Assembly (NCBI GenBank): GCA_016208165.1
Contig: JACQYL010000067.1
Coordinates: forward strand, 1-44,976
Direction: 5' to 3'
Source: Deltaproteobacteria bacterium
GTDB taxonomy: Bacteria > Desulfobacterota > Desulfarculia > JACQYL01
DNA length: 44,976 nucleotides
In this document: positions 35,807 to 44,744 of the stretch, in pieces
Layout: each line of letters starts with the position of its first letter
Position numbering within the stretch: the first letter of the stretch is position 1
Translations under genes and position numbers: made by a program
The notes under the pieces: generated by a model
Databases searched by the model: none
What the model saw: only the letters and a program-made list of their open reading frames with translations
What the model was told of the DNA's origin: nothing

Positions 35807-36346
35807 GTGGATTATCTACCCGACAACCGAACAGACTTTCTGTTTTATACCTCGGCAGCCGGCGAAGTAAAAGCAGAGGTTTTTTTGAAGGATGAATCGG
35901 TCTGGCTTACACAGAAAAGCATGGCGACGTTGTTTGGCGTCAAGGTTCCGGCAATAAACAAACATTTAAAAAATGTCTTTGATTCCAAAGAATTAGATGA
36001 GGATTCAGTTGTTTCCATTTTGGAAACAACTGCTGCGGACAATAAAAAATACAAAACAAGGTTTTACAATCTTGATGCTATTGTCTCGGTCGGATACCGG
36101 GTCAATTCCTACCAGGCAACCCAATTCCGCTCAAAATATTTTTGTAAAATGCGTGGGCCTGACCCTGAGACCCTGCCCCGATGGGAAATGGCCGCTCAAG
36201 TCGCCAGCCAAGTCGTCGCACATGCCTGCGCCAAAGCGGCTTGGGCATCCTGGCAAGTCGCGGCAGGATTTAAGTGCTGGAGTATGGGGAAACGGGGTTT
36301 AGTTGGAATCAAGGAAGCAGTTGCCGGCAACACCGACAGAGAGTGA
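35807..36346 (+). pseudogene. Truncated RhuM-family gene with unrelated 3' end
   Basis: The first ~107 codons (to about 36129) match the N-terminus of RhuM-family proteins. Shared segments are ESVWLTQKSMATLFGV, INKHLKNVF and RFYNLDAIVSVGYRVNSYQATQFR in part. Here RhuM proteins continue with IWAT..L.E, but the frame switches to a GC-rich, low-complexity sequence of about 70 residues ending AGNTDRE, which was not recognised. The abrupt change in composition marks a deletion or insertion joint. RhuM proteins are accessory genes with HTH-like N-termini and unknown function, named from a Salmonella pathogenicity island. The start is GTG with GGAGGG 9 nt upstream. Confidence 0.75.
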
Positions 36347-36637: not shown

Positions 36638-37903
36638 ATGTTCGATACCATTGCGGAATTACTAGAAAAGCTGCGACTGGGCGAAGACACCTACCTCGAA
36701 TCGAAGGCTGTTCGATTCGCGGGGGGCAAAGTCGCCGCTCCGCATCGGGACAGTCTTGCCGACGAACTAGCGTCAATGGCCAACAGCCGGGGAGGAGTAT
36801 GCCTGCTCGGGGCGGAAGATGAGACCCGAGACGCCACCGGTATCCCGTTAGAACATCTTGATACGGTTGAAGATTTTGTGCGCGAGGTTTGCACGGATTC
36901 CATCAAGCCGGGTCTTGCGCCTGTCATTGAGCGGCTCTTTCTTCCCGATGCGACAGGAACTCGAGTCCCGATCATTAAGGTGGAGGTGCCCCGCAGCCTG
37001 TTCGTTCACCAGAGCCCGGGGGGCTATCTATACCGAATCGGCAGCGCCAAGCGCCAGATGCCGCCGGATTACCTGGCGCGGCTTTTTCAACAACGCAGCC
37101 AGACCAGATTCATCCATTTTGATGAACAAACCGTAGCCGGCAGCCGGCTCGATGAATTGGATCCTTCGCTCTGTCGCCGTTTCGCCGGCTTGAATCAGGG
37201 CGGCCTGGCCGAGGATCTCCCGATCAAACTCGGAATGGCGCGAAAGGACGGAGACGGCGTGGTTCGCCCCACGGTGGCGGGTGTTCTCATGGCGACGCCC
37301 GAGCCCCGACGATGGCTGCCCAATGCGTTTGTTCAGGCCGTAGCCTATCGGGGAACTACAGTTAGCACCGGCGAGGACGGGATCTACCAGCTCGATGCGT
37401 CCGATATATCGGGGCCGCTAGACAAGCAAATCACAGATACTTGCGCCTTCGTGAGGAAGAACATGAAGGTCGCAGCGATAAAACGTCAGGGACGCACAGA
37501 CCTGCCCGAATACGATATGACCGCTATTTTCGAGGCGGTCGTAAACGCCGTGGCGCACCGTGACTACTCGATTCACGGTTCGAAGATCCGCTTAAAAATG
37601 TTCGCCGACCGCCTGGAGATCTATTCACCCGGAACGATCCCCAACACAATGACCATAGAAAGCCTTCCATACCGTCAATCGGCCCGCAATGAAACGCTTA
37701 CCAGTCTGCTGGCCCGCTGTCCCGTTGGCGGCGGGGATTGGGCCCCGCACAGATCCCACATGATGGATAAACGAGGCGAGGGGGTCCCGATTATTCTGGA
37801 ACGCAGCCGTCAACTGAGCGGTCGCGAGCCGCAGTATCGGCTGATTGATGACACGGAGCTTATGCTCACCGTGTGGGCGGCTCGGCCGGATAAATACAAT
37901 TGA
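36638..37903 (+). CDS. AlbA_2/Schlafen-type ATP-binding protein with HATPase_c_4-like C-terminus
   Basis: A 421-residue protein. The N-terminal AlbA_2 (divergent AAA_4/Schlafen-like) domain runs from ESKAVRFAGG through LADELASMANSRGGVCLLG to YLYRIGSAKRQM. The C-terminal part holds EAVVNAVAHRDYSIHGSKIR and RLEIYSPGTIPNTMT, the ATP-lid architecture of the RecG-like/HATPase_c_4 family, followed by RGEGVPIILERSRQL. Such proteins are common in accessory and defence regions, and are often called putative transcriptional regulators or helicases without proof. The ATG has AGAGGA upstream. Full length and free of frameshifts, unlike its three upstream neighbours. Confidence 0.8.
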   Translation: MFDTIAELLEKLRLGEDTYLESKAVRFAGGKVAAPHRDSLADELASMANSRGGVCLLGAEDETRDATGIPLEHLDTVEDFVREVCTDSIKPGLAPVIERLFLPDATGTRVPIIKVEVPRSLFVHQSPGGYLYRIGSAKRQMPPDYLARLFQQRSQTRFIHFDEQTVAGSRLDELDPSLCRRFAGLNQGGLAEDLPIKLGMARKDGDGVVRPTVAGVLMATPEPRRWLPNAFVQAVAYRGTTVSTGEDGIYQLDASDISGPLDKQITDTCAFVRKNMKVAAIKRQGRTDLPEYDMTAIFEAVVNAVAHRDYSIHGSKIRLKMFADRLEIYSPGTIPNTMTIESLPYRQSARNETLTSLLARCPVGGGDWAPHRSHMMDKRGEGVPIILERSRQLSGREPQYRLIDDTELMLTVWAARPDKYN

Positions 37904-38354: not shown

Positions 38355-39416
38355 ATGACCAAATTTCCGGACAAGTTCGATCGCTCCGAAATCGTCCTCT
38401 ACCAAACCGAAGACGGCCGCACGCGCATCCAGGTGCGGCTTGAAAACGAAACGGTTTGGCTGACCCAGGCCGACATGGCCAGGCTTTTCCAGACCACACC
38501 TCAAAATATCACGCTTCATCTGAAGAACATCTTCCTGGAAGGTGAATTGGACCAGGCGGCAACTTGCAAGGATTTCTTACAGGTTCAAACCGAGGGAAAT
38601 CGAAAGGTCCGCCGCAGCCTCAGGTTTTACAAGCTGGATGTGGTCATTTCAGTGGGTTACCGGATCAAGAGCCATATAGCCACCCGGTTCAGGCAATGGG
38701 CCACTCAGCGACTTCGGGAATATATCATCAAAGGCTTCGCACTCGACGACGAACGGCTCAAGCAGTCGGGCGGTGGCAACTATTTCGAGGAGTTGCTGGC
38801 CCGCATCCGGGACATTCGTTCCTCGGAAAAGGTTTTCTGGCGCAAGGTGCTCGATATTTACGCCACAAGCATCGACTACGACCCGAACACTAACATGTCC
38901 CACAAGTTTTTTCAGGTGGTGCAGAACAAAATACACTGGGCGGCACATGGTCATACCGCGGCCGAAATTATCTCCGCACGCGCCGATGCCGCCAAACCCA
39001 ATATGGGACTCACCTCGTGGACAGGAGCCAAGCCCACGCAAGCCGGCAGCGAAATCGCCAAAAACTATTTAACCTTAGAGGAATTGGACACCCTCAACCG
39101 GATCGTCGCCATCTACCTCGATTTTGCGGAGTTGCAGGCCCTAAACCGAAAGCCGATGTACATGAAGGACTGGATTGCCAAGCTGGACGAGTTTTTGAAA
39201 GTCAGCGAGCGGGACATTCTCAAACACGCGGGCACAATCAGCCACGAGACGGCCATTGAAAAGGCGCGCAGCGAACATGAAAAATTCAGGGAAAAGATGC
39301 TGAAAGAGCCATCGCCGGTGGAGCGTCACTTCATGGAGGCGGTGAAGGAAGTCAAAAACCTGGATAGGGGGAAACCACTAACCGCACGCAATACACCAAG
39401 GGAGAAAACGAAGTGA
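38355..39416 (+). CDS. RhuM-family accessory protein, full length
   Basis: A 353-residue protein of the RhuM family. Segments are ETVWLTQADMARLFQTT, ITLHLKNIFLEGEL, RFYKLDVVISVGYRIKSH, TRFRQWATQRLREYIIKGFA and the downstream DIYATSIDYDPN and LNRIVAIYLDFAELQA. The N-terminal part has an HTH/KilA-N flavour. Function is unknown; the family is scattered among genomic islands. GGAG lies 7 nt upstream of the ATG. It is complete, in contrast to the truncated relative at 35807, and is flanked by diverged direct repeats, which suggests arrival as a cassette. Confidence 0.82.
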   Translation: MTKFPDKFDRSEIVLYQTEDGRTRIQVRLENETVWLTQADMARLFQTTPQNITLHLKNIFLEGELDQAATCKDFLQVQTEGNRKVRRSLRFYKLDVVISVGYRIKSHIATRFRQWATQRLREYIIKGFALDDERLKQSGGGNYFEELLARIRDIRSSEKVFWRKVLDIYATSIDYDPNTNMSHKFFQVVQNKIHWAAHGHTAAEIISARADAAKPNMGLTSWTGAKPTQAGSEIAKNYLTLEELDTLNRIVAIYLDFAELQALNRKPMYMKDWIAKLDEFLKVSERDILKHAGTISHETAIEKARSEHEKFREKMLKEPSPVERHFMEAVKEVKNLDRGKPLTARNTPREKTK

Positions 39417-39503: not shown

Positions 39504-39624
39504 GGTCGAATAATGAAGGGTCGCGGAGAGGTATGCGGACGCGGCCCCTTTCCCACACTTATATGTACTAAACAACGGCGCAGGAAACTCATTATCCATG
39601 GACTTCACATCCGATTTGAATCCC
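39504..39624 (+). repeat. Diverged direct repeat, copy B (start of the helicase gene)
   Basis: Partner of 38132-38263. It covers about 90 bp before the helicase ATG and the first ~9 codons. The 22-bp identical block is 39590-39611. Confidence 0.7.
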
Positions 39625-41544
39625 GAGCAGAAAGAAGCGGTTCTGGCGGACGAACCGTATATTCTGGTGAATGCGGGACCGGGGACGGGAAAGACGCACA
39701 CGTTGATCCGGCGAATCGCCCGCTTGGCAGGAGAGCCTTCTTCCCCAAAGGCGTCCATCGTGGTTCTTACGTTCACCCGCAAAGCGGCCGAAGAGCTGAA
39801 GTCGCGCTTATCGGGCGTAATGGCGGACGCTCCGGAGACCTTGCAGAACATCTGGGCGGGAACCATACACGCCCGGTGCGTACATCTGCTTCGGCAGGAT
39901 CATGAGAAAAAGCAGGGCGAGTTCTCGTACAGCGTCTTGGATCGGGAAAACCAACTCGAACTGGTGCGAATGCTGCTCGAAAGTGGGGTCATGCCTGCGT
40001 GCGAAGCCACGGGCACGGAGGTACTGAACGCATTTTCCTCCGCCAAGAACGGGTGCCTCGATGGCGAGCCCTTTGCGGGGTGGCGGGAAGCGCTCGAGAT
40101 CTATCAGAAGACCCTGAAACGAATGAAGGTGCTGGACTATGACGACCTTCTGATCGAAGCCCTCGAACTCCCCGACTACGAAGCATCGACGCCTGCGCAC
40201 GTTTTGATCGACGAATACCAGGACGTCAATCCGCTTCAGCATCGGCTGGTCCGAAAATGGGTGGCAGACACAGGTCGTCTGTTCGCCATCGGAGACGCCG
40301 ACCAGTCCATTTATGGATTTCGCGGAGCCGACACCGGTCGCTTCCTTCGCTTCGAAAATGAGTACCCGGGGGCGCGAGTTCTGCGGCTGACCATGAACTA
40401 TCGCTGCGTTGCGACCATCGCGGAAGCGGCGGGAAGCGTAATCCGCCACAACAAAGAGCGGGTGTCCTCGGTGATCCGGGCCCATCGGGAACAGGGCGAA
40501 CCTCTTCGGTGTGTCGAGGTTGACGATGAAAGGGCCGAGGCCGATTTCATCGCTCGGGACATCGAGCGTTTGATCGGGGGGACGCACAGCTTAGGGGTCC
40601 GCCGCCTGCAGACCGGCGGAGAGGACTCGGAGTCGGAATTTCACTTCGGGGATGTGGCGGTCCTGTTTCGGACCCATGCCCTGGCGCAGCCGATTCGAAA
40701 GGCCCTCGAACAGGCGGGATTCCCTTGGAAAGAGGCCGCCAGGGACCCTCTGTATGAGAGCGATTCGTGTCGAGGCGCCTGGAGTCTGGTTCGCTTCTGT
40801 TCGAATCCGTCGGACGATCTGGCGTTGTCTTCATGGATTCGATGTCGATGGGGCGCTCCAGCGAAAGCTCTTCTAAGCGCACTTCGAAGAGGGGCCCTGG
40901 AAACGGAAATGAACATCGAAGCGGTTCTGAGCTCCTATATTCCCCATACCACCGCGCAGGAAAGCATCCTGGGTCCGTTAAGGGAGGAGCTTGTCGTCCT
41001 CTCCGAAGACTTCGAACGGCGGACTATGGCCGAGCTATTGAATCGGATCGGGAATCTTCTCAATGTGGATTCAAGATCGGAGGCCTTCTACGCGTGGGAG
41101 CACCTGACACAGCGAGCAACCTCCTTGGACCCGGCGCCGGCCCGGGAATCGGCGCGGGATTTTCTGGACTTCTTCAACTTGAAAAACCCGTCGGAACGAT
41201 TCTACGAGCGGTCGGAGGCCGTTTTTCTGTTGACGCTTCACGCGGCCAAGGGACTCGAATTTCCGGTGGTGTACGTGGTGGGATTGGAAGAAGACCTGTT
41301 GCCATACAAGAAAGAAGGAGAGGTCACGGACATCGAGGAAGAACGGCGGCTGTTCTATGTGGGCATGACTCGGGCGTCGGACCGGCTGGTTCTGACCCGG
41401 TGTGAGAACCGAGTCGTTTGGGGGCGGAGACGGTCGTCCAAACCTTCCCGGTTTCTGTCCGAATTGGACCCCAGCCTGGTGGTATTGGAACGGGTGAGGA
41501 AAAAACCCGCTCCAAAAAAACAACGGCAGAAAACCCTTTGGTAG
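39598..41544 (+). CDS. UvrD/PcrA/Rep-type superfamily 1 DNA helicase
   Basis: A 648-residue helicase with all SF1A motifs: Q-motif LNPEQKEAV, Walker A AGPGTGKT (26-33), Ia VLTFTRKAAEEL, Walker B LIDEYQDVN, III IGDADQSIYGFRGA, IV LTMNYRC, V TLHAAKGLEF and VI EERRLFYVGMTRA. It is somewhat shorter than UvrD (about 720), with a short basic tail. Members unwind DNA in repair or remove proteins from DNA. Which one this is cannot be decided. The ATG lies within the duplicated 22-bp block. The Shine-Dalgarno (AGGA) is weak and 11 nt away. Confidence 0.92.
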   Translation: MDFTSDLNPEQKEAVLADEPYILVNAGPGTGKTHTLIRRIARLAGEPSSPKASIVVLTFTRKAAEELKSRLSGVMADAPETLQNIWAGTIHARCVHLLRQDHEKKQGEFSYSVLDRENQLELVRMLLESGVMPACEATGTEVLNAFSSAKNGCLDGEPFAGWREALEIYQKTLKRMKVLDYDDLLIEALELPDYEASTPAHVLIDEYQDVNPLQHRLVRKWVADTGRLFAIGDADQSIYGFRGADTGRFLRFENEYPGARVLRLTMNYRCVATIAEAAGSVIRHNKERVSSVIRAHREQGEPLRCVEVDDERAEADFIARDIERLIGGTHSLGVRRLQTGGEDSESEFHFGDVAVLFRTHALAQPIRKALEQAGFPWKEAARDPLYESDSCRGAWSLVRFCSNPSDDLALSSWIRCRWGAPAKALLSALRRGALETEMNIEAVLSSYIPHTTAQESILGPLREELVVLSEDFERRTMAELLNRIGNLLNVDSRSEAFYAWEHLTQRATSLDPAPARESARDFLDFFNLKNPSERFYERSEAVFLLTLHAAKGLEFPVVYVVGLEEDLLPYKKEGEVTDIEEERRLFYVGMTRASDRLVLTRCENRVVWGRRRSSKPSRFLSELDPSLVVLERVRKKPAPKKQRQKTLW

Positions 41545-41832
41545 GAATAACCGTTGAGGGCTTACATTCAAAAGGCGGTTGAACCGTTTTCAGCATCGTC
41601 GTCATGAGAAGGTGAGCGATAGAGGTCGTCTGATTGCATTGAAAGGATCGGTTCAACGCATAAGCCGTTGCGTCCCACTTGTTTTTGCTATAGCATTACC
41701 CATGTAGACATAGGATTTCATGGATTCCGTTATGCGGATCGCGTGTATTGTAAACGTGTAATTGAACATTAAGAGTGTCCCCCTGCTAATAGTGATCTTT
41801 GGTGATAACCGAATTGAGAGAGGGAATTCGTG
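41545..41832. other. Intergenic region before the cNMP-methyltransferase gene
   Basis: About 290 bp. It contains CGGTTGAACCG (41577-41587) and a related inverted copy near 41649. No promoter or terminator is clear enough to call. Confidence 0.4.
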
Positions 41833-43374
41833 ATGTCGGGACAGGAAACCTCGATGGAGCCTTTTCACAACGTAGCGGCTGCAGAAATAGACAGTGAAGC
41901 ATTTGAGAAGATACTGTCGGCTTCCGAACCTGTTAAATACAGCCAAGGCGACGTGATCATGGCGAGCGGTTCCGATTCGCAATCGATCTGCTACGTGGAA
42001 AAAGGGACCGTGGAGGTTTCGTATTCTACGAAGGGTACCAATATCGTAGTGGCTCTCATAGGACAGGGGGAGCTGTTCGGCGAAATCGGCTTCTTCGACG
42101 GGGTTTCCCGCGTGCGTAATGTCCGGGCCGTGGAGAATTCGACCCTTCGGATCTGGGAACGGGATCAGGTGCTCCGGATCCGGAGCGAGGATCCGGGCCT
42201 CTATGGGAGCTTCGTTACCTTGATGGCTCAGTCCATCTGCAACAAATTCCGACGAGTGCTGGAAGATCGCGAGCCGCTCACAGGATATGCCGCGTCGTTA
42301 TCGACGGGCAAAAGAACCTTCCGGGAGGCGCGAGCGATACCGGAACATCTTTTCGTCACGGAGGAATGGCGGCTGGTGAACCGCCTCGTGGAACAGTGCA
42401 AGGCCGATTTTTTCGGTCTCGGTTACGAGTTGCAGCGAGAGAAGGGAGAGGAGGTCAGCGAAGAGAGGCGCTTGGAGTGCCGCGGCATACTGGATCGATT
42501 CAATGACGGGCTCCAGGATTGCATCTCCCTGATCGACGACGAGCAAATTGAAGAATACTTATGGGGGTTCGTGTTCAAGGAAATATTTCCCTATTTCATG
42601 AGGAGCCGGTTTGCAGAGCGAGCGTTTTACAAACCCAAAGGCTACGCGGGCGACTTCCTCATGATGGAAATGATCTATCAGAACCGACCGGACGGAGACG
42701 GCAAGTTGGGCAGGCTGGTCGACGAGTGGTGCATCAATACGGCAGCGGCGCGAGCCGTTCGGGGGCGGAGGGAATTGCTGAGCTCCATTCTGGAATCGTG
42801 GTGTGAAAAACATCGATCGCGGGAAGCCGCGACCCGTATTCTGAACCTGGCCTGCGGCTCGAATCGGGAGCTGTTCGATTTTCTCGGACGCTACAAACGG
42901 ACGGAATCCATCGAGGCGACCTGCGTGGATGCGGATACGGAGGCCCTCGAGTATACCAACCGGCACGTGAATGTTGTTCCCCATCGGGCCGCCGTGCGAT
43001 TTATGCAGGACAATGTGATAAAATGGGCCCTCGGCCGTGTCCGGCACAAATTGGGACAGATGGACATCATCTATTCCGCGGGTTTGACAGACTATTTGGA
43101 TCGGAAGTTGCTCCAAGCGTTGGCCAGACAAAGTTATGAACATCTGAAGCCCGGAGGCGTGTTTGTGGTGGGCAACTTCGGCTTGAACAATCCCAACAGG
43201 GCCATGATGGAACATCTGCTGCAATGGAATCTGATTCATAGAAGTGAAGATGATCTTCGGAACATTTTTCTCAATACACCGTTCGGAAAAAACATCGATG
43301 TACTGTCCGAATCCGAAGGAATAAATCTGTTTGCAGTGGCCAGAAAGCAACCTGAGGGAAGCCTGACGGTTTGA
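41833..43374 (+). CDS. Cyclic-nucleotide-binding domain fused to PhcB-like SAM methyltransferase
   Basis: About 513 residues. An N-terminal cNMP-binding fold (about 20-130) shows the phosphate-binding-cassette region GELFGEIGFFDGVSRVRNVR. A helical linker follows. The C-terminal half has FYKPKGYAGDFLMMEMIY (about 267-283), a signature recalled from PhcB-like 'EF 3-hydroxypalmitate methyl ester biosynthesis' proteins. Then comes a Rossmann SAM site (ILNLACGSNREL, 337-348; ATCVDADTEAL) and a late MDIIYSAGLTDYL. PhcB of Ralstonia makes the quorum signal 3-OH PAME. Here a lipid or other methyl acceptor is inferred only. The ATG with GAGGGA 8 nt upstream is preferred over the adjacent GTG. The stop overlaps the next start (TTGA). 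Confidence 0.72.
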   Translation: MSGQETSMEPFHNVAAAEIDSEAFEKILSASEPVKYSQGDVIMASGSDSQSICYVEKGTVEVSYSTKGTNIVVALIGQGELFGEIGFFDGVSRVRNVRAVENSTLRIWERDQVLRIRSEDPGLYGSFVTLMAQSICNKFRRVLEDREPLTGYAASLSTGKRTFREARAIPEHLFVTEEWRLVNRLVEQCKADFFGLGYELQREKGEEVSEERRLECRGILDRFNDGLQDCISLIDDEQIEEYLWGFVFKEIFPYFMRSRFAERAFYKPKGYAGDFLMMEMIYQNRPDGDGKLGRLVDEWCINTAAARAVRGRRELLSSILESWCEKHRSREAATRILNLACGSNRELFDFLGRYKRTESIEATCVDADTEALEYTNRHVNVVPHRAAVRFMQDNVIKWALGRVRHKLGQMDIIYSAGLTDYLDRKLLQALARQSYEHLKPGGVFVVGNFGLNNPNRAMMEHLLQWNLIHRSEDDLRNIFLNTPFGKNIDVLSESEGINLFAVARKQPEGSLTV

Positions 43375-44744
43375 AGCACAGGGATAAAGATCTCGAAGGA
43401 CGGTTTCGAAAGGACCAGGAACCGCTCGTCCGCGGCAGGGTCGGTTTCATATTGATGATGGGCGTGATCTTCGTGCCGCTCTTCAGATTGATCGATTACC
43501 TGCTGTTTCCCAAGTTCTTCAACACGTTCGCGCTGTACCGATCTCTGGCCTCCGGAGGCTGCCTTGTCCTTTATCTGGTTAATCGGTACGCGGATCTGGG
43601 GTTCAAGAGCTTCTATCTGGGAGTGGCGGGCTACTACCTGGTGGGGTTCAGCATCATCAAAATGATTCTGGACCTGGGAGGGTATACTACAAGTTACTAC
43701 GCCGGTTTGAATTTGGTATTCATCGGATTCACCGTAATCCTTCCTTTGGACACACGCCGCACGGCAACTCACTGTATTTTACTCTATCTGATCTATACGG
43801 CGGCGCTGTTGTTGACAAAGCGGCCCGAGCACCTCGCCCTGTTCCTGTCCAACAATTCGTTTGTAGTCAGCACCCTGGCCATCGTGATTTTTGCGGCGTA
43901 TGTGAATTACCAACTCAGATGGAAAGAGTATATTTCCCGCATTCATCTCGAAGAGCTTCGGAATCAACTGAAACGTTATTCCGAAGGCCTCGAAAATGTG
44001 GTGGAAGAGAAGCACAAGGCCCTCATGAAAAACATCGAAGAGCTGCACGAGCGCCAGGCAATGCTGGTCGAAACCCAGAGAGCGGCCATTTTCGGATTGG
44101 CCAAGCTGGCTGAATCCAGGGACAAGGAAACGGGAGAACACCTGGCTAGAATGAGGTGCGTGTGCAAAGCCATCGCGGAAGAGCTGATTTTTTCCGACGG
44201 ATACAGCGATCAAATGGACCGGAAGTTCATTGAGGATCTCGCGGATTCGTGTGCATTGCACGATCTGGGTAAAGTGGCGGTGCCGGACGCCGTCTTACTC
44301 AAGCCGGGGCCGCTCACCGACGAAGAGTACGAGGTGATCCAGAAGCACGCCGCCATAGGGGGCGACGCTCTCAAGGCCATTGACGAACGGTTGGGAAACG
44401 AGAGTTTTATACGAATCGGGCAGGAGATCGCGTATTCTCATCATGAACGCTATGACGGTACGGGTTACCCCACGGGGCTGAAAGGTGAAGAAATTCCCCT
44501 TGCCGCGCGCATCGTGGCGGTAGCCGACGTGTATGATGCACTGACTTCGAAGCGCTGTTACCGGGCGCCGGTCACGCCCGAAGAGGCGTTGGACTATATT
44601 GTGAGAAGCAGGGGACGTCACTTTGACCCCGACGTGGTGGACGCTTTTTTGAGGGCGTATCCCCGGTTGCGGAGAGAGACCTCTCCTTCCGGTGAAGACG
44701 ATTGCGACGAAGGAGGAGGTAAGTCCGCCAAACCTGGCGAATGA
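43371..44744 (+). CDS. Membrane-anchored HD-GYP c-di-GMP phosphodiesterase
   Basis: A 457-residue protein. The N-terminus carries about six hydrophobic helices (25-180) with the motif TTSYYAGLNLVFIGFTVILP between them. A coiled coil (190-235) connects to an HD-GYP domain: HLARMRCVC (H257), LHDLGKVAVPD (H297-D298), QKHAAIGGDAL, HHERYDGTGYP (357-367) and VADVYDALTS. HD-GYP enzymes hydrolyse c-di-GMP. All expected metal ligands and the GYP signature are present, so activity is likely. The start is TTG overlapping the previous stop, with GAGGGA about 12 nt upstream; no later start precedes the first helix. The membrane part probably senses a ligand. Confidence 0.87.
   Translation: MKHRDKDLEGRFRKDQEPLVRGRVGFILMMGVIFVPLFRLIDYLLFPKFFNTFALYRSLASGGCLVLYLVNRYADLGFKSFYLGVAGYYLVGFSIIKMILDLGGYTTSYYAGLNLVFIGFTVILPLDTRRTATHCILLYLIYTAALLLTKRPEHLALFLSNNSFVVSTLAIVIFAAYVNYQLRWKEYISRIHLEELRNQLKRYSEGLENVVEEKHKALMKNIEELHERQAMLVETQRAAIFGLAKLAESRDKETGEHLARMRCVCKAIAEELIFSDGYSDQMDRKFIEDLADSCALHDLGKVAVPDAVLLKPGPLTDEEYEVIQKHAAIGGDALKAIDERLGNESFIRIGQEIAYSHHERYDGTGYPTGLKGEEIPLAARIVAVADVYDALTSKRCYRAPVTPEEALDYIVRSRGRHFDPDVVDAFLRAYPRLRRETSPSGEDDCDEGGGKSAKPGE

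Follow-up and report, generated by a model that had tools for sequence, protein, structure and literature searches.

Two genes at the end of the stretch of DNA analyzed here (the window: all 44,976 nucleotides of contig JACQYL010000067.1) raise the question of whether a methyltransferase carrying a cyclic-nucleotide-binding domain and a membrane-bound HD-GYP protein form one signaling circuit: that is, whether a lipid signal made by the first gene product could be turned by the second directly into a change in c-di-GMP. An initial annotation had proposed such a circuit, by analogy to PhcB and PhcS of Ralstonia. The features of the pair are:

41830..43374, + strand: CDS 1; GTG 41830 or ATG 41833 start; 514/513 aa
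41932..42186, + strand: cNMP-binding domain of CDS 1; Pfam cNMP_binding, residues 34-118, E 4.9e-16
42526..43359, + strand: methyltransferase domain of CDS 1; KPKGYAGDF, ACGS SAM motif, GLxDYL motif
43371..44744, + strand: CDS 2; TTG start; 457 aa; six-helix PhcS-type sensor domain plus HD-GYP
43374..44015, + strand: six-helix membrane sensor domain (about 200 aa) and beginning of coiled-coil linker; invariant Arg/Tyr-Gly motif (YYAGL)
44100..44636, + strand: HD-GYP domain; H257, H297-D298, H325, H357-H358, D386; HHERYDGTGYP; metal-ligand motifs intact

Domain content and arrangement of the two genes

In its ATG form, the CDS 1 protein comprises a cNMP-binding domain (about residues 19-145), a helical linker, and a PhcB-type SAM methyltransferase (about residues 235-505). 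Pfam methyltransferase models cover about residues 278-444, indicating a class I SAM methyltransferase, and KPKGYAGDF occupies residues 267-275; the fusion of a cNMP-binding domain to a methyltransferase bearing this motif, read from the sequence by the initial annotation, is borne out. Glu84 and Arg93 of the phosphate-binding cassette (FGE84...R93) do not vary among 18 relatives. With 6 class III cyclase, 13 GGDEF, and 10 HD_5 domain matches in the source genome, the cell may plausibly contain cyclic mono- and dinucleotides.

In the N-terminal half of the CDS 2 protein, six hydrophobic segments lie between residues 17 and 183; an HD_5/HD-GYP match (Pfam) follows at residues 244-422 (E 3.1e-35). 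The HD-GYP domain aligns over its full length with PA4781 (4r8z; E 4e-49), a c-di-GMP phosphodiesterase, and also matches PmGH (4mcw), similarities that suggest that CDS 2 hydrolyzes c-di-GMP; the cGAMP-specific phosphodiesterase 5z7c is likewise matched. A Pfam scan found no HisKA/HATPase in CDS 2, and the output is the HD-GYP domain. The idea that c-di-GMP breakdown here takes the place of a kinase is accordingly upheld at the level of domains, in that the ligands of the HD-GYP domain are intact and kinase domains were not found, with hydrolysis itself being predicted.

The TGA stop of CDS 1 (43372-43374) overlaps the TTG of CDS 2 (43371-43373), with the two genes sharing TTGA (4 nt). Homology between CDS 2 and its relatives starts at residues 3-8, ahead of other start codons, which supports the TTG start, and the description of a multi-helix HD-GYP protein whose TTG start overlaps the methyltransferase stop holds in full. 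The sequence itself shows the overlap, and the two genes may be translationally coupled; intact pairs in relatives mostly have a gap of 3-50 nt, not the overlap seen in the window. A UvrD-type helicase gene (39598-41544) precedes the pair, with a gap of 285 bases, and the contig ends 232 bases past CDS 2. Further upstream lie two RhuM-family genes (35807-36346 and 38355-39416), one of them short, with 46/252 profile positions matched, and between them an AlbA_2/RecG-C-terminal-type ATPase gene (36638-37903); these genes possibly constitute a defense or mobile patch. Structure models made from two-row alignments were poor (pLDDT 49 and 53), and no conclusion rests on either.

Relationship to PhcB and PhcS

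As the yardstick for Phc quorum sensing we used a plasmid cluster of Paraburkholderia graminis, a proxy for Ralstonia PhcB/PhcS on which the term 'PhcB-like' rests. The cluster has the order methyltransferase, histidine kinase, two response regulators; for Ralstonia, the order phcB-S-R-Q is inferred from the tags RSc2735, RSc2736, and RSc2738 (PMC6989110) and the operon name (PMC10653808). The Paraburkholderia PhcB-like protein keeps Arg22, the position mutated in Ralstonia phcB R22C (PMC6989110), and the PhcS-like kinase has its phospho-His at position 233 (H230 in PhcS; PMC11960443). PhcB is reported to be a methyltransferase that produces 3-OH PAME/MAME (PMC6989110, PMC10653808), and Phc clusters are reported to be restricted to Betaproteobacteria (PMC10653808).

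CDS 1 aligns with the PhcB-like protein over 276 aa (29%, E 7e-36), and its methyltransferase domain belongs, like that protein, to the KPxGYxGD family; a grouping of the methyltransferase outside the PhcB family, which we looked for, was not found. A phylum-wide search identified the full cNMP-methyltransferase protein in 17 other genomes (47-57% identity), together with further methyltransferases that match the C-terminal part of CDS 1 only. The front end of the methyltransferase varies, being cNMP-binding, PilZ, or neither, and the G-Y-G-D, GxxDYL, W, and R columns of the C-terminal part, which CDS 1 and the PhcB-like protein share, are invariant across 32 sequences. In a tree with long branches, the cNMP-domain enzymes form one clade (99/99) that includes the window enzyme, and the PhcB-like protein and methyltransferases with PilZ N-termini fall outside it. 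The Paraburkholderia PhcB-like protein has no detected cNMP-binding domain. A PilZ-like N-terminus suspected by eye in that protein was rejected, as it matched neither the PilZ-type relatives nor Pfam PilZ. An RsbW-type ATPase appearance was noted by eye at the N-terminus of one methyltransferase (L061). The window methyltransferase belongs to the family of the PhcB-like protein, but sits in a cNMP-domain clade of its own; judged by alignment and tree, it is related to PhcB without being an ortholog.

The comparison of the membrane region with PhcS-type sensors, suggested at the outset, gave a positive answer. A profile of the six-helix domain (A2) built without the Paraburkholderia kinase finds the sensor of that PhcS-like kinase with E 1.3e-21, and direct BLASTP of the CDS 2 sensor against the kinase aligns 181 aa at 22% (E 5e-5). 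We conclude that the CDS 2 sensor is homologous to that of the PhcS-like kinase, the proxy for PhcS.

Conserved pairing and exchangeable outputs

The same set of 395 genomes from the phylum was searched with profiles for the methyltransferase (A1) and the six-helix domain (A2). Where the methyltransferase profile matched strongly (37 genomes), 33 have the six-helix domain, vs. 24 of the 358 genomes without such a match (Fisher p 2.7e-28, a value that overstates significance, as genomes are non-independent, with the spread over families being unaffected). The methyltransferase gene and a six-helix gene lie within about 2 kb of each other in 26 of the 37 genomes, representing 13 family codes, and in all 26 are on the same strand. 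Pairwise distances of the partners correlate (r 0.63; 0/2000 permutations), a result that shared descent alone could give. The pairing has exceptions: four of the 37 methyltransferase genomes lack the six-helix domain, many six-helix proteins have no methyltransferase nearby, and in methyltransferase clade f37 the partner domain is encoded elsewhere in the genome. By eye, the unlinked six-helix gene of family f37 (L071, L072, L075, L076) follows acyl-CoA ligase- and radical-SAM-like genes. Linkage is underestimated by these counts, because diverged methyltransferases adjoin six-helix proteins in three genomes of one genus (L082:2776-3816, L083:2254-3261, L084:2565-2990; both ORFs are shorter in L084).

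For almost every full-length relative of CDS 1, the next gene begins with a homolog of the six-helix part of CDS 2; what follows that part is exchanged. PAS-kinase-receiver is the commonest partner output, SpoIIE occurs in L058, PAS-HD-GYP occurs in L041, L043, L047, and L048 (two other families), and HD-GYP directly behind the six-helix domain, the same pair as in the window, occurs in L038. More distant methyltransferases adjoin kinase-receiver and PAS-GGDEF partners. In one further genome, two six-helix proteins lie beside a methyltransferase (L061:3301-5088 and L061:6471-7862, both - strand), one SpoIIE-like and one with a class III cyclase by eye.

Outside the phylum, plasmid sequences gave no BLAST match to the six-helix domain, and a profile search was needed. 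In Pseudanabaena the A2 profile picks up a kinase whose gene converges with that of a methyltransferase (E 9e-24); in rhizobia it weakly matches (E 1e-6 to 1e-7) GGDEF proteins, one of them with an EAL annotation, whose genes diverge from those of methyltransferases. On rhizobial plasmids (L098:1338-3332, L101:1579-3585, L070:3663-5609) a KPRGYSGD-type methyltransferase is divergent from the weak six-helix GGDEF match, possibly an undescribed signal/c-di-GMP pair. Adjacency of the pair is thus not confined to this genome: the pairing extends over no fewer than 13 families of the phylum and beyond it to other phyla.

Proposed mechanism and alternative explanations

The most likely reading is that the locus encodes a second-messenger-gated lipid-signal synthase and a one-component c-di-GMP-phosphodiesterase receptor. 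According to this reading, binding of cAMP or cGMP by the N-terminal domain of CDS 1 would switch on the methyltransferase, which would transfer a methyl group from SAM to a lipid-like acid; by analogy with PhcB, this acid is most likely a (3-hydroxy) fatty acid. The resulting ester, being membrane-soluble, would be sensed inside the six-helix bundle of CDS 2, in the same or neighboring cells, and the coiled coil would relay the signal to the HD-GYP domain, directly altering c-di-GMP hydrolysis without a kinase or response regulator in between. Sequence comparison establishes the domain make-up, the intact catalytic and ligand-binding residues, the homology of both partners to the PhcB-like/PhcS-like pair, and a conserved pairing in which the outputs are exchanged. 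A 3-hydroxy fatty-acid methyl ester as product, and as receptor ligand, is suggested by analogy to Phc, and the cNMP gating, the sign of regulation, and a cell-cell rather than cell-autonomous role are presumptive. To our knowledge, a product, ligand, or activity is known only for the Phc systems among family members. We consider it somewhat better than an even bet that CDS 1 and CDS 2 are a two-gene signaling module related to PhcB/PhcS that works as proposed.

The same components could operate without cell-cell signaling, with the six-helix domain sensing a membrane lipid or quinone modified by the methyltransferase. In its favor, endogenous lipids act on the six-helix bundles of adenylate cyclases (PMC11606603, PMC12505454), the A2 profile matches mammalian adenylate cyclases 8 and 5 in their membrane domains (8buz, 8sl3; E 2e-4), and in one relative a gene annotated as fatty acid desaturase is nearby. 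However, the closest studied synthase/receptor pair is a quorum-sensing pair, and no quinone or lipid biosynthesis gene adjoins the pair in the window; we regard this cell-autonomous role as unlikely. The enzyme might instead act as CheR does, methylating the neighboring receptor or another protein for adaptation, with no diffusible signal. Strict pairing with a receptor suits a modifying enzyme equally well, and some family members (L049, L052) score above the Pfam CheR cut-off, with one relative annotated 'chemotaxis protein CheR'. The window protein, however, is below that cut-off (17.4 vs. 27 bits), the studied relative PhcB is reported to make 3-OH PAME/MAME (see above), and no shared methylation helix region is evident, because the output domains vary so much; receptor adaptation appears distinctly improbable.

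That CDS 1 and CDS 2 are unrelated neighbors sharing a transcript by accident is scarcely credible: a different gene adjoins the methyltransferase in L036, which has the same genus code as the paired L038, but same-strand adjacency recurs across the families counted above, and the two domains co-occur even when unlinked. We therefore retain the synthase/receptor module as the preferred interpretation.

Relationship to known systems

The literature searched contained no description of a PhcB-type protein combined with a cNMP-binding domain, and none of a widespread family of gated synthases and six-helix receptors; PhcB and HD-GYP occur together in one paper (PMC10667535). The initial impression that the combination is undescribed stands to this extent, but the arrangement is not peculiar to the window, given the same pair in L038 and the PAS-HD-GYP partners in two families. 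The family-wide modularity is the most interesting part. With the chances about evenly balanced, we propose a widespread family whose PhcB-type synthases are gated by an N-terminal cNMP-binding or PilZ domain and whose PhcS-type six-helix receptors, reading the product, carry freely exchanged outputs (kinase, HD-GYP, GGDEF, GGDEF-EAL, SpoIIE, and apparently class III cyclase); the window member would link an intracellular cyclic mononucleotide to c-di-GMP through a secreted lipid. The distribution over many families of one phylum and over rhizobial and cyanobacterial plasmids suggests that the synthase and receptor at the core of Phc belong to a modular family of far greater breadth. The family would suggest candidate ligands for six-helix receptors that resemble the membrane domains of adenylate cyclases, and ligand and output are simple to test in cultivable relatives.

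The RpfF synthase is no methyltransferase, and its receptor RpfR is soluble, with PAS-GGDEF-EAL domains. RpfF/RpfR nevertheless provides precedent for the circuit idea, with other protein families, as a synthase and a receptor that directly degrades c-di-GMP (PMC6361424, PMC3703271). In the RpfF/RpfR systems for DSF/BDSF in Burkholderia and Cronobacter, as proposed here, a fatty-acid signal synthase works with a one-component c-di-GMP-hydrolyzing receptor; there, however, a crotonase-fold synthase is combined with a PAS-GGDEF-EAL receptor, and here a methyltransferase with a membrane six-helix HD-GYP protein. The Pfam content of the two pairs differs, and the likeness is one of analogy only. 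CqsA/CqsS and LqsA/LqsS differ from the window pair in having histidine-kinase outputs and PLP-dependent synthases, CqsA being one. LqsA is another (PMC10653808). CqsS and LqsS are six-helix receptors for lipophilic signals (PMC4821796), likened to the window sensor by description. Lipophilic ligands act both on CqsS and on the adenylate cyclase membrane domains (PMC4821796, PMC11606603), which favors the proposed lipid sensing by CDS 2. The A2 profile also matches a diguanylate cyclase (8wcn; E 4e-7).

The HD-GYP phosphodiesterases PA4781 (4r8z) and PmGH (4mcw) share with CDS 2 a catalytic domain with intact motifs; they carry a receiver or GAF domain, whereas the HD-GYP domain of the window is attached to a PhcS-type membrane sensor. 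In Bdellovibrio Bd1971 a cNMP domain controls an EAL enzyme, and in the window the cNMP domain is on a methyltransferase. With Phc (PhcB/PhcS/PhcR/PhcQ) the window pair has in common a family-related methyltransferase beside a receptor with a homologous six-helix sensor; it differs in the cNMP domain on the enzyme, the enzyme clade, and the HD-GYP output in place of a histidine kinase. Whereas Phc quorum sensing ends in a kinase cascade, the window variant would feed the lipid signal straight into c-di-GMP, and synthesis of that signal would be set by another second messenger.
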